Shown: piece after piece, positions 16,267-21,224 of the stretch | Numbering within the stretch: position 1 is the stretch's first letter | Layout: each line of letters opens with the position of its first letter | NCBI GenBank assembly: GCA_016787445.1 | Contig: JAEUTQ010000057.1 | Coordinates: 1 to 64,000, forward strand | DNA length: 64,000 nt | DNA from: Bacteroidia bacterium | Lineage (GTDB): Bacteria; Bacteroidota; Bacteroidia; B-17B0; Aurantibacillaceae | Direction: 5' to 3' | Made by a program: the position numbers and the translations under genes | The notes under the pieces: model-generated | Databases searched by the model: none | Told to the model about the DNA's origin: nothing | The model's input: the letters and a program-made list of their open reading frames with translations, nothing else

Positions 16267-17241
16267 ATGGCGCGCATATTAACAGGCATACAAAGCACCA
16301 ATGTTCCGCATTTAGGAAACATATTAGGTGCTATTTTACCGGCAATCGAATTAAGTAAAAATCCAAAAAATGAATCTTTATTCTTTATTGCCGATTTACA
16401 TACTTTAACTTCGGTGAAAGATCCGCAGTTTATTATTAATAGTACAAAAGCGGTTGCTGCAACCTGGTTAGCTTTTGGGTTTGATACTACTAAAAATATG
16501 TTTTACCGCCAGAGTCGTGTTACGGAAGTGTGTGAATTAACCTGGTATTTGAATTGTTTTACGCCATACCCGATGTTGGCTAACGCGCATTCGTTTAAAG
16601 ACAAAAGCAATCGTTTAGCAGATGTGAATTCAGGATTGTTTACTTATCCGGTATTAATGGCTGCAGATATCATTTTGTATGATGCGAATTTTGTGCCGGT
16701 GGGGAAAGATCAATTACAACATTTGGAAATGACACGCGATATTGCAAGCGCGTTCAATAATAAATTAGGCAAAGAAATTTTTGTAATTCCGGAAGCGTTA
16801 ATTGATGAGCGTGTAATGATAGTACCAGGTACCGACGGACAAAAAATGAGTAAGTCGTACAACAACTTCATTAATATTTTCCTTCCGGAGAAAGAATTGA
16901 AAAAAGTGGTGGGTGGAATTGTAACAGACAGTACGCCATTGGAAGAACCGAAAAATCCTGATACGTGTAACGTATTTAAATTATATCAATTATTGGGCAG
17001 CGCCGAACAAACTGAAAGTCTCCGACAAAATTATATAAAAGGTGGTTTTGGTTATGGCCATGCAAAAAATGCTTTGTTTGAATTGATACTGGAAAAATTT
17101 GGCGAGCAGCGCCAATTATTTAATGAGTTGATGAGTCATCCAACGAAACTCGAAGAAGAATTAAGTATTGGCGAAAACAAAGCCAAAAAAATCGCTCAGG
17201 AAAAATTAGCTGTCGTGAGAAAAGAATTGGGATTTGCTTAG
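16267..17241 (+). CDS. trpS: Tryptophan--tRNA ligase
   Basis: 324-aa class I aminoacyl-tRNA synthetase that charges tRNA(Trp). HIGH-type motif PHLGN (residues 14-18) and KMSKS (193-197) are intact, and the tryptophan-pocket sequence YPVLMAADIILYDA is present. The frame is open from 16219, but the ATG at 16267 gives MARILTGIQ, the usual start for the family; the upstream 16 codons are not conserved and overlap a TATTTTTA promoter-like element. The stop overlaps the convergent NHL protein stop by 4 bp. Confidence 0.95.
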   Translation: MARILTGIQSTNVPHLGNILGAILPAIELSKNPKNESLFFIADLHTLTSVKDPQFIINSTKAVAATWLAFGFDTTKNMFYRQSRVTEVCELTWYLNCFTPYPMLANAHSFKDKSNRLADVNSGLFTYPVLMAADIILYDANFVPVGKDQLQHLEMTRDIASAFNNKLGKEIFVIPEALIDERVMIVPGTDGQKMSKSYNNFINIFLPEKELKKVVGGIVTDSTPLEEPKNPDTCNVFKLYQLLGSAEQTESLRQNYIKGGFGYGHAKNALFELILEKFGEQRQLFNELMSHPTKLEEELSIGENKAKKIAQEKLAVVRKELGFA

Positions 17242-18566
17242 TGTTGGATTACAATTTTCTTTGTAATTACTCCTTCAGTTGTGAAGAGTCGTAAATTATA
17301 AATTCCTTCACTAATGCTGCTAACGTCAATTTGATTAGTGGAGTTAGTTCGTAGTACTCTTACTCCAAGTGAATTTATAATTTCTATTTGAGAGCTCTTA
17401 ACGTCTAATATCCCAAAATCCATTTTTAATAAATTATTCGCAGGATTAGGGAATATTTTAATTTCATCATTCGCATCACCATATTCCTCCACGCCAATTG
17501 CACAACTATTAATACATACTATCCTTATTCGATGATTTGATCCATCAGCTATTAAAATATTCCCATCAGCATCCAGTGCTATATGTTGTGGTGATATTTG
17601 TGCATTAATTGCCGGACCATTATCGCCAGAATAACCCGGAACACCTGTTCCTACAATAGTACTAATTATTCCGGCAGTATTTATTTTACGAATAGTGCCA
17701 AAGGCATAATCCGCAACATAAATGTTACCTGAAGCATCTAAAGCTAATCCTCTTGGGTTTCCGAGTTTAGCTAAAGTAGCAAGGCCCCCATCGCCTGTGT
17801 TCCCGTATAATCCGCCGATACCGGCTATCGTAGTGATGACACCTGAGGAATTTATTTTACGCACACAATTGTTTCCAAACTCAACAACGTAAATATTACC
17901 TGTAGCATCCAATTCGATTGCTTGTGGCGAATAAAGCTGTGCCAATGAGGCAAGGCCACCATCCCCTGAAAACCCTGCCGTTCCAATCCCTGCTACCGTT
18001 GTAATAATGCCCCCAGTATCTATTTTTCTAATCCTATGATTGCCTGCGTCTGCAAAATAAACATTACCAATTGCATCAAGTGCTACATCCCAAGGCTCTC
18101 TGATGTTGGCAGTTGTGGCCAATCCTCCATCACCTGAAAACCCAGGTACACCATTTCCTGCAATGGTATTAACAATACCACTAGTATTTATTTTTCTTAT
18201 TCTATGATTTTGTCCATCCGCAATGTAAATATTTCCCATTGGGTCTAATTCAATACCCCTCGGATTATAAAATTGAGCTAAGGTAGCAGTACCACCATCT
18301 CCCAAACTTGACCCGCCTCCTGCTAAAGTTGATATTATTCCTGCATTATTTACTAATCGTAAAGTGCTATAATAACCAGTGGTAAAGTATAAATTGTTAA
18401 AGGCGGACGCAATTCCAATCGGAAGATAGACCTGAGCTGAAGTTGCAGGCCCTCCATCTCCGCTATTTGCGGTGCAGGTCCCAATTCCTGCATAAGTATA
18501 AATGTTTTGAGCATTAAAAGAAATACTCCAAAAAAACAAAAAAATAAAGGTGTGTTTCAGTTTCAT
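17238..18566 (-). CDS. NHL-repeat secreted protein with T9SS type A sorting domain
   Basis: 442-aa secreted beta-propeller. I start at the ATG at 18566 (MKLKHTFIFLFFW), which gives a clean signal peptide ending FNAQ and removes an overlap with the next gene. About six NHL-like repeats of 50-57 residues follow, each with the pattern GNIYVADxxNHRIRKI then TIAGxGxxGFSGDGG. The last 75 residues form a Por secretion-system type A domain (IKIFPNPANNLLKMDF, ending IVIQH), so the protein is exported by T9SS and probably held at the surface. NHL propellers bind proteins or RNA or act as lyase-type enzymes; no catalytic site is recognisable. It is the last of a minus-strand run of secreted proteins. 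Confidence 0.85.
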   Translation of the reverse strand: MKLKHTFIFLFFWSISFNAQNIYTYAGIGTCTANSGDGGPATSAQVYLPIGIASAFNNLYFTTGYYSTLRLVNNAGIISTLAGGGSSLGDGGTATLAQFYNPRGIELDPMGNIYIADGQNHRIRKINTSGIVNTIAGNGVPGFSGDGGLATTANIREPWDVALDAIGNVYFADAGNHRIRKIDTGGIITTVAGIGTAGFSGDGGLASLAQLYSPQAIELDATGNIYVVEFGNNCVRKINSSGVITTIAGIGGLYGNTGDGGLATLAKLGNPRGLALDASGNIYVADYAFGTIRKINTAGIISTIVGTGVPGYSGDNGPAINAQISPQHIALDADGNILIADGSNHRIRIVCINSCAIGVEEYGDANDEIKIFPNPANNLLKMDFGILDVKSSQIEIINSLGVRVLRTNSTNQIDVSSISEGIYNLRLFTTEGVITKKIVIQH

Positions 18567-18588
18567 TAACATAAATATACCAATACAA

Positions 18589-18957
18589 TTACTTCTTTCC
18601 AATATAACGGCTTGAATTAGGTCCCATACCTGGAGTGAAGTCTATGTAAACACTATCATTAACAAATCTTCCAAACAAATGCATTCTTTGATCGAAAAAT
18701 TTAGAGTTTCTTAATTTAGTTACAAACACCCCTTCTTGCATTTCAATATTCAACATCGAATCAGCGGATGACTTACTAATTACTATTGTAAAATTATTAG
18801 TGCTTGATATGAAAGACTTGCTTTGTGCATCACAATATCTTACAGTACGCACCGATGCAAAATTTCCGCAATATGCATCGCGGTAATCTGAAGGTTTTAT
18901 AGCAAATGAAGTAATCAAAGTAAAAAAAAGAAGTAAAAATATATTTAGAATTTTCAT
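18589..18957 (-). CDS. Small secreted protein of unknown function
   Basis: 122-aa protein with a clear Sec signal peptide (residues 1-19, IFLLLFFTLITSFA). The mature part has two cysteines (DAYCGNF and VRYCDAQ) that could form a disulfide, and a beta-rich C-terminal half. It carries no T9SS sorting domain. I recognise no family. It sits 18 bp after the GH16 gene and just before the NHL gene, so it is probably co-transcribed with these secreted proteins. Confidence 0.65.
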   Translation of the reverse strand: MKILNIFLLLFFTLITSFAIKPSDYRDAYCGNFASVRTVRYCDAQSKSFISSTNNFTIVISKSSADSMLNIEMQEGVFVTKLRNSKFFDQRMHLFGRFVNDSVYIDFTPGMGPNSSRYIGKK

Positions 18958-18975: not shown

Positions 18976-20037
18976 TTAATTTGGACATTCGGTAACGCGC
19001 ATTAAAAAAGATCCGGAACCATTATCATTTATTGTTGTACCTTCATTAAGTAATACAAAATCTGTTGCCCAAAAGCTAACATTACTTCCTGTATTTATTG
19101 TACTTGTACAACTAGAGCCTCCGATTGTTACCGATTTTTTAACGGCATATGTGTATGACCCCGCACTGAAATTACAAATATTCTCTACTGTGCTGCAATC
19201 TGGAGTAAGTTGCCATAAATTGAAATAATTAACCTGAAAATAAGCTGGAAAAACAGTATTAGGGTCAGGAGGGTTTAGCCAGTTTGATGGGATAATTGCA
19301 AAGTTAATTATTGTAGAAAGTGAATGACTTGGCACATGCGCAGGATCATTGTCTACTGAAAAAACAGGAGAATCATCGAAAAAGTAGGTGAATCTGTCTG
19401 GCTCCCAAAACACAGCATACTTATGTTCATTTGCAATATTTGTCCCAACATCGATCCCTGGTGGGATGACACTACCGCCTGGACATGATGGCAAGGCTGG
19501 GCAAGGTGGTGAAACAGGCGAAGGATAATACCAGTAGTTAAACCCCATTTGATTTCCAAGTGAGGAAACAAGACCGCCATTTTCGACAATGTCAATTTCG
19601 TTATACCAGCAATATGGTGTATCACCCATTCCCCAAATCCAAAAAGCCGGCCAATAACCCATCCCTACAGGTAATTTGGCTGATATTTCATAATAGCCGT
19701 ATTTGGCTGTCCATGTTGATGAAATAACACCACTTTGATATTTGTATGGTGAGTTCGGTCCTGCGGTATATGTTATTGGAGTTACTGTTTCACACTTTAT
19801 TGCTAAATACCCTGTACTGTACGTTAATAAGAGATTTGATGCGCTATTATATTCATCACCATTGTTAACAGGCGCACCCCAAGGATATGTTGTAATCCAT
19901 TGGGGACTGAGTGTATTCGTATTGAAAGCGTCTTGTTGGGTAAGCGACCATGTTGCATCACTTAAAGGCAATTGCGCCCGCATAAATACAGAGATGTTAA
20001 AAACAACATATAAGAACAACGTTAAAGTCCTTTTCAT
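18976..20037 (-). CDS. Glycoside hydrolase family 16 beta-glucanase
   Basis: 353-aa secreted enzyme of the laminarinase/lichenase type that cleaves beta-1,3 or mixed-linkage glucans. Signal peptide about residues 1-21. The GH16 catalytic motif EIDIVE is intact, with nucleophile E147, D149 and acid/base E152, preceded by the substrate-cleft segment GYWPAFWIWG. The last about 90 residues (starting TPDCSTVENICNF) resemble the short beta 3-coathanger modules found at the ends of Bacteroidota secreted proteins. No T9SS type A or B sorting domain is visible, so it may leave by Sec only and stay periplasmic. Substrate specificity is inferred from family only. Confidence 0.85.
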   Translation of the reverse strand: MKRTLTLFLYVVFNISVFMRAQLPLSDATWSLTQQDAFNTNTLSPQWITTYPWGAPVNNGDEYNSASNLLLTYSTGYLAIKCETVTPITYTAGPNSPYKYQSGVISSTWTAKYGYYEISAKLPVGMGYWPAFWIWGMGDTPYCWYNEIDIVENGGLVSSLGNQMGFNYWYYPSPVSPPCPALPSCPGGSVIPPGIDVGTNIANEHKYAVFWEPDRFTYFFDDSPVFSVDNDPAHVPSHSLSTIINFAIIPSNWLNPPDPNTVFPAYFQVNYFNLWQLTPDCSTVENICNFSAGSYTYAVKKSVTIGGSSCTSTINTGSNVSFWATDFVLLNEGTTINDNGSGSFLMRVTECPN

Positions 20038-20039
20038 AG

Positions 20040-21224
20040 TTACTCAGTTAAAATCATTTTCTTGGTTTCAATTTCCTTATTATTTACAACCAGACTGTAG
20101 TAATACATACCTGGTGCAAAATCGTTAGCGTTTATTGTAATTGTACCCTTGCCTGAAGATAGAGCTTTAAGTGTTTTTAATAATTTACCGTTCATATCAA
20201 AAACTAAAACAGAGGAGTTAGCATTTCTTTCGGCAATAAAATATTCAATAACTGTTTCTTTGTTAAACGGGTTAGGGTTGTTTTGTTTAATGTAAGAACT
20301 GTTATTACTTTCATCAGCACTTCCATTCTCCGGTGCAATTAATCTGTTATTACCGCTTGCCTTCGCACAACAATTATTTACATCATTTTCTAATTGCGCA
20401 ACCTTTGCATTTTGTTCTTTAAGTGCCTCAATTAGTAAACCCACTAACATTTCATAGCAAACGGCTTTTGTTCCATCTTGCATCGTCTTTACCACTTGTG
20501 GGGCAACTGCTTCTACATCTTGTGCAATTACACCCATGTATTCCTTTGCACTACCATAAACACTTGGGTTCTGTTTTTCTACTTTTAGTTTGTAGGTAAC
20601 GCCATTGATTTTATTTACTTTGCTCATCGCGCTATCTATGCCTTTTATCTCATCTTTAATGTTTTTATCTGAACCCAAATAATTACCATCAGAAAAAATC
20701 CAACCCTGTCCTGCTACATAAAACTTAGTTGTGCCATTTAACTTAACTAAGTAATTAGCAGAATTTGCCCTGTTTGTAGCAGTAATCATAGACTGATACC
20801 AATCGCCAGTATGGCTGGCATTAATGTGAATTCCAGTAGCTATTGTATAAATACTTAGGTTTCCATTATCTGTTGTCGTATTTATCAATAAGTTTCCGGC
20901 TGAATTAATTCGCATCTTTTCACTGCCATCGATTGTGAAACCCATAACATTATAAGCCGGATGAAATAACCCGGTTTGGTCATTACCGTACCATGTAAAG
21001 TCTGGCGTGTTAGCTGCTGAATAACCATTATTACCGCGTATGCGGGCAGCTGAACCACTAATTGATGAAGCTGAACTTACAACTAGGTCGCCTGTAAACT
21101 TATGCTTTTCGCCACCTCCAGGTGCAGTTGTTGAACCATAAGACACAGCCCCACCACTAAATACTTTAATTTGCGCAGATGCAACTGTTGTTAAACTCAT
21201 AAAGAGTAAAATAATTCTTTTCAT
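20040..21224 (-). CDS. Secreted tail-fibre-like protein: S74 intramolecular chaperone plus T9SS sorting domain
   Basis: 394-aa protein with a signal peptide (about 1-18, ending ASAQ), a beta-rich region 20-180, then a peptidase S74 domain at about 182-265. The S74 catalytic dyad is visible as Ser 185 and Lys 190 (LGSDKNIKDEI), followed by GVIAQDVEAVAPQVV. A coiled coil (about 262-285) with a Cys pair (285-286) follows, then a T9SS type A domain from about 314 (NNPNPFNKETVIEYFI to the end). S74 domains trimerise tail-fibre stems and then cut themselves off at the Ser. Here the sorting domain is on the far side of that cut site. It precedes GH16 by 2 bp. Confidence 0.82.
   Translation of the reverse strand: MKRIILLFMSLTTVASAQIKVFSGGAVSYGSTTAPGGGEKHKFTGDLVVSSASSISGSAARIRGNNGYSAANTPDFTWYGNDQTGLFHPAYNVMGFTIDGSEKMRINSAGNLLINTTTDNGNLSIYTIATGIHINASHTGDWYQSMITATNRANSANYLVKLNGTTKFYVAGQGWIFSDGNYLGSDKNIKDEIKGIDSAMSKVNKINGVTYKLKVEKQNPSVYGSAKEYMGVIAQDVEAVAPQVVKTMQDGTKAVCYEMLVGLLIEALKEQNAKVAQLENDVNNCCAKASGNNRLIAPENGSADESNNSSYIKQNNPNPFNKETVIEYFIAERNANSSVLVFDMNGKLLKTLKALSSGKGTITINANDFAPGMYYYSLVVNNKEIETKKMILTE

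Follow-up and report, generated by a model that had tools for sequence, protein, structure and literature searches.

The window (the whole 64,000-nucleotide stretch of DNA that we analysed) carries a 394 aa open reading frame on the minus strand at 20040-21224, an interval in which the minus strand is open and the plus strand is full of stops. Frames and profile matches show that the coding sequence (20040..21224, minus strand, as are all features below) runs from a signal peptide through a fibre passenger, S74 and a predicted coiled coil to a T9SS type A tail. The Sec signal peptide, read from the sequence, spans residues 1-18 (21171..21224) and has an ASAQ end, its exact limit, at the Ala ahead of the Q18/I19 region, being approximate. 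It is followed by a passenger of ~165 aa (~residues 19-184; 20673..21170), delimited from sequence and an AlphaFold model and rich in predicted strands throughout, at moderate model confidence; this is the part that would be set free from the sorting tail by a cut, if one occurs. The S74/ICA domain (residues 185-246; 20487..20672) was identified by fold match and by Pfam PF13884, matched over profile positions 1-58 of 58 (E 7e-14; 52.3 bits against a cut-off of 22). Behind it, the C-terminal S74 helix (residues 257-292; 20349..20456) is predicted from the model and an alignment to form a trimeric coiled coil, with hydrophobic heptad positions at 268, 275, 278, 282 and 285. The AlphaFold model, a monomer model with a mean pLDDT of 78, assigns low confidence to the linker between this helix and the T9SS type A sorting domain (residues 317-391; 20052..20276), which is supported by PF18962 (E 2.1e-8), by TIGR04183 (E 3e-9; 36.7 bits against a cut-off of 23) and by the model. 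The initial annotation's central claim, an S74 domain placed ahead of a T9SS sorting domain, is thus borne out, with the tail at 317-391 where 314-394 had been given.

The S74 half of the protein resembles both viral and eukaryotic counterparts. Its PHROGs matches are phage tail fibres (best E 1e-25), and the sequence matches the phage long tail fibre chain 6f45_A (E 2.8e-8). With the AlphaFold model as the Foldseek query, the best solved match was the MyRF ICA (7dc3; E 1.1e-4); the T9SS CTDs 8gl6 and 6za2 and the endoNF chaperone 3gw6 also matched, with weaker E-values and among unrelated matches. Chance resemblance to S74 can be ruled out, as profile, fold and all 39 alignment members agree (the alignment, A4, takes 38 of the 52 listed relatives). 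A prophage fibre at this locus was considered and rejected, the neighbours seen being housekeeping and secreted genes. A scan of viral contigs with the 394 aa protein found no relative (two pattern matches, neither confirmed), and matches among 577 phage records were below 60% identity, none covering 80% of the protein.

Three genes follow in a row. A GH16 glycoside hydrolase gene (18976..20037; 353 aa; PF00722, E 1.9e-12) starts 2 bp past the S74 stop and contains EIDIVE, an instance of ExDxxE, which we take to be the GH16 motif. Next come a 122 aa ORF with a signal-like N-terminus (18589..18957), with a relative at the syntenic position in one congener (L120), and an NHL-repeat protein with a T9SS type A tail (17238..18602; Pfam and TIGRFAM-type profile matches). 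A promoter and terminator scan gave results at chance level. GH16 genes were present in 40 of 283 loci, overlapping pairs included: 11 in the GTDB-family loci L001-L140 and 29 in the 78 named-genome loci; our own profile detected no T9SS tail on the GH16 frames of those 40 loci. Of the three GH16 genes in the window's genome, two lie next to its two S74 genes; congeners G052, G057 and G058 have two each, one beside an S74 gene. From the GH16 density of this genome, the binomial p for GH16-S74 adjacency is 1e-40, ignoring kinship.

The predicted scissile bond is G184|S185 (both codons, 20670..20675), given that S185 corresponds to Pfam column 1 and the family cuts before Ser; K190 (20655..20657), the second residue of the Ser-Lys dyad, was assigned from profile column 6 and conservation. 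Both residues are intact, as had been proposed from the sequence, and their +5 spacing equals that of S911/K916 in endoNF and S587/K592 in MyRF. The MyRF cut is described as falling between P586 and S587 and as requiring S587 and K592, equivalent to endoNF S911 and K916 (PMC8326128), and the T5 cut as Thr1263-Ser1264 (PMC4690869). Since the bond lies ahead of the sorting domain, a cut at G184|S185 would cost the passenger its sorting tail.

Phage enzymes are described as employing an Arg 14 residues ahead of the Ser (R897 of endoNF, PMC8326128; R1250 of T5, PMC4690869). An Arg at -14 is absent here (A171), and R/K at this position is rare in relatives (3% of T9SS-tailed and 4% of untailed domains). 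MyRF is reported to cut with no stalk Arg at work, aided by two tyrosines (PMC8326128). Column 27 is aromatic in 99 of 100 tailed domains and is Y211 in the 394 aa protein; judging from spacing, we read it as the nearest counterpart of a MyRF tyrosine. In the relatives studied, the Ser is dispensable for folding, T5 S1264A (PMC4690869) and MyRF S587A (PMC8326128) both having been crystallised, and MYRF K583A is reported to oligomerise still (PMC3742443).

The dyad is conserved in relatives, as the initial annotation had suggested checking. Among T9SS-tailed S74 domains (87 from the GTDB family and 13 from a phylum sample), Ser was found in 99/100 and Lys in 100/100. Untailed domains retained them at the same level (Ser 95/97, Lys 96/97; Fisher p 0.62 for Ser), so the presence of a T9SS tail does not relax the dyad. 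A separate set of named genomes had Ser in 55/59 (three Ala and one Cys) and Lys in 59/59, with 7 more ORFs undeterminable; this count leaves out 7 ORFs with an unaligned start, 3 without T9SS and 1 duplicate, and since the GTDB and named sets overlap (L060 = L206, L121 = L208), their dyad counts were not summed. The tailed domains, whose mean pairwise identity is 38% in profile-aligned rows, vary least at Ser, Asp, Lys and one Gly, and the conserved Ser is encoded by both codon classes (TCN 77, AGY 22). The best tree of 136 domains has 14 changes of the T9SS label, four or more of them on well-supported branches (the tree has few columns and many open forks); the dyad has therefore persisted while the tail was gained or lost several times. 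Natural S-to-A variants with a T9SS tail also occur (L140, L234, L235 and L245). The Cys case is a T9SS-tailed S74 protein at L220 (2497-3774), in which Cys replaces the catalytic Ser.

The same domain order was found widely when relatives were searched, and the picture of an odd single protein falls short: the most frequent S74 architecture within the GTDB family has a T9SS tail behind the domain (87 of 136 domains, compared with 13/61 in the phylum set). S74 was present in 64/87 genomes of the family and in 39/148 of an even phylum sample, and the window's genome encodes two S74 proteins, both T9SS-tailed. Most untailed S74 proteins stop right after the coiled coil. When named genomes were searched with this subfamily's tail end, 78 loci came back, including ones from Bacteroidales, Prevotella, Porphyromonas crevioricanis, Fluviicola and Chitinophaga. 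The profile used to call tails in these sets was built on tails of the window's genome and of the family and replaced TIGR04183, so T9SS types B and C could be missed. The family and phylum counts leave out nine loci without S74 by our own profile (L135, L169, L186, L190, L191, L195, L197, L200 and L203), four domains open at the 3' end, three duplicates and fragments starting past profile position 6.

A natural control came from short secreted proteins in the phylum sample that consist of a signal peptide and S74 only, with relatives gathered in two Bacteroidota families. In these secreted S74 proteins without a passenger, Ser was retained in only 10/40 and Lys in 26/40, whereas the structural Gly of the GxIAQ motif was present in 41/41 (this alignment includes one fragment left out of the 40). 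Relative to tailed domains, the losses gave p 7e-21 for Ser and 4e-9 for Lys, values obtained on related sequences: the 40 come from two families and do not represent 40 independent events. The passenger-bearing fragment L332 was excluded from the 40, and 13 of 54 matches, longer than 210 aa, lie outside the control. Two further residues of the GxIAQE motif, Ala and Gln, drift as well in the passenger-less set. Because the dyad is lost without a passenger while the Gly stays, and because published Ser and Lys mutants fold or oligomerise, the dyad appears to be kept for cutting and not merely for the fold. The simplest reading is that it is retained because a passenger is there to be cut off, and the persistence of the cutting residues across the phylum suggests that cells make use of the cut when they build or release the fibre. 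The initial annotation had left two branches, a cut that frees the fibre after export or a cut that is blocked; the passenger-less control favours cleavage, while we infer the cut itself and its timing after export. These proteins offer a natural comparison that parts cutting from folding.

A twin cysteine, C285-C286 (20367..20372; from sequence and alignment), lies at the end of the S74 helix and is a candidate interchain staple. Within the family, 31/87 tailed domains and 1/49 untailed ones have it (p 2e-6, ignoring kinship), and within the phylum set 1/13 tailed and 0/48 untailed. The sole untailed case, L093, owes that label to a weak T9SS match that was earlier scored as a tail but missed the threshold once the set was enlarged. 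When the association of twin cysteine and T9SS tail was tested on the tree, the median p was 1, with only 4 independent pairs and so no power. The heptad pattern would, as we read it, put C285 at a core position, and an interchain staple at C285-C286 is plausible. Twin cysteines in the same phylum are described as forming lasting disulfides in the SprF motif (PMC12635249); a literature search for neighbouring cysteine pairs in trimeric coiled coils brought no relevant result.

The protein combines features of three known systems. It shares with the MyRF ICA (MYRF, MrfA; 7dc3) the S74 fold, the +5 Ser-Lys dyad, a C-terminal coiled coil (here predicted), the lack of a working stalk Arg and a targeting part C-terminal to the domain, parted from the passenger by a cut that is here predicted; MyRF, however, is a eukaryotic transcription factor held in the ER by a transmembrane segment, whereas this is a secreted bacterial protein with a T9SS tail. 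With phage S74 proteins (endoNF, T5 pb1) it has in common a fibre passenger, the SDxxxK start of S74 and a chaperone coiled coil (here predicted), but in those S74 is the very C-terminus and Arg stands at -14, while here we find a T9SS tail, A171 and no phage region. Like the T9SS type A cargo proteins RemA and RemZ, it has a Sec signal and a type A CTD (the model matches the RemA CTD, 8gl6), and it differs from them in having a domain of self-cutting type directly ahead of the CTD.

Our evidence favours a working cleavage joint in T9SS cargo that would be common in this part of the phylum. In the reading that we prefer, and to which we give about an even chance, the protein is a T9SS cargo in which S74/ICA serves as a trimerising chaperone and a MyRF-like self-cutting release joint. 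In MyRF, the cut sets the N-terminal trimer loose while the C-terminal half remains membrane-anchored. Type A substrates are described as leaving CTD first, the CTD being bound inside the SprA pore with PorV (PMC10994853), and PorU usually removes the CTD, accompanied by release or LPS attachment (PMC11285876). SprA is encoded in the window's genome (2460 bits, contig C55). After Sec export, single chains would pass SprA/PorV in turn, each led out by its CTD. Once outside, the S74 domains of three chains would meet and zip up via the coiled coil, perhaps locked in this protein by C285/C286. Fibre folding by the S74 trimer would be followed by the cut in front of S185, which would release the trimeric fibre while the S74 part stays behind at the sorting end. 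Trimerisation, the cut, its probable timing after export and the role of the cysteines are the inferred parts of this proposal. Since known S74 domains cut on trimerising, export as monomers followed by assembly outside would resolve the conflict between the cut and the tag. The missing stalk Arg and the natural S-to-A and S-to-C variants speak against this reading. So does MYRF, described as processed in every system its authors tried (PMC3742443): were trimerisation to take place in the periplasm, the passenger would be left stranded.

A more detailed version, which we offer as a tentative and somewhat doubtful extension, is a Bacteroidota form of MyRF-like release at the surface. Tail-first monomers would trimerise outside, a ring of twin cysteines would lock the base, and the S74 base left after self-cutting would be covalently closed. 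For one widespread subfamily, this version adds that the fibre would act with a co-encoded, tail-less GH16, which might ride out on it.

The alternatives differ in where the trimer forms and whether it cuts. The main rival to monomer export, unlikely in our judgement, has the trimer cutting in the periplasm, with the passenger and the S74-CTD part staying non-covalently joined and leaving through the T9SS together. Such a route needs no delayed assembly and agrees with the intact dyad and with the constitutive cutting described for MYRF (PMC3742443), but three CTDs would have to travel on one rod through a translocon seen with one CTD (PMC10994853), and the hold of chaperone on fibre must, as the T5 authors argue, be weak enough for release (PMC4690869). 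Were a periplasmic cut instead to split cargo and tag for good, the S74-CTD part would be exported and the passenger would act in the periplasm, an outcome that would follow if periplasmic trimerisation were as fast as in phage and MyRF. We regard it as very improbable: the tail would be useless for the passenger, yet well over half of the family's S74 domains (87/136) have this architecture, and S74 with the part upstream of it resembles phage fibre tips.

It is also conceivable, though we think it improbable, that no cleavage occurs, S74 serving only to join fibre and sorting tail permanently as a trimeric base, with Ser and Lys kept for structure or by descent. The missing stalk Arg, the natural S-to-A variants with T9SS tails and a twin-cysteine staple, which would suit a lasting base, all point this way. 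Set against them are the near-invariance of Ser and Lys at 38% mean identity and the loss of the dyad in passenger-less S74 with the fold's Gly kept. Moreover, S-to-A mutants of T5 (PMC4690869) and MyRF (PMC8326128) are reported to fold regardless, and MyRF to cut without the Arg (PMC8326128).

A domain otherwise met in phage fibres and in a single family of eukaryotic transcription factors would, if it cuts here, commonly serve to mature or release proteins that Bacteroidota secrete. A trimerisation-triggered cutter placed between cargo and export tag would also pose a question of timing for the T9SS, as it would report whether substrates leave as monomers. Proteins that combine S74 with Por_Secre_tail already appear in domain databases. 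Searches of the openly licensed literature for S74 with intramolecular chaperone, tail fiber domain and endosialidase, each with T9SS, found no paper joining S74 and T9SS; a search for peptidase S74 in Bacteroidota yielded one paper, on contractile injection systems, and a further search on tail fibres and T9SS gave none on an S74-T9SS architecture among the matches listed.

Several loci depart from the simple arrangement. In L021, L064, L078 and L080, two S74 domains per frame precede one T9SS tail, all with Ser and Lys, and in L080 no passenger separates the second S74 from the first. At L269 (3499-4474) and L261 (3163-4510), the S74 start is in one ORF and the T9SS tail in another, owing to a frameshift or to separate genes. 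Small S74-only secreted proteins form the sets L288-L317 and L318-L326 from two Bacteroidota families, in which the dyad is often lost.

The syntenic congener gene at L120 (1551-2771), which has the same GH16 neighbour, shares with the window's gene the tail and an N-terminal part with 83.5% DNA identity over window positions 20911-21177. Its middle (~residues 105-283, including S74) has no DNA-level alignment to the window's gene, and in protein alignment its S74 is of another type with the dyad intact (SDQSVK). Fibre tip and S74 have been exchanged as a module between congeners at one locus, with the N-terminus and the T9SS tail kept.
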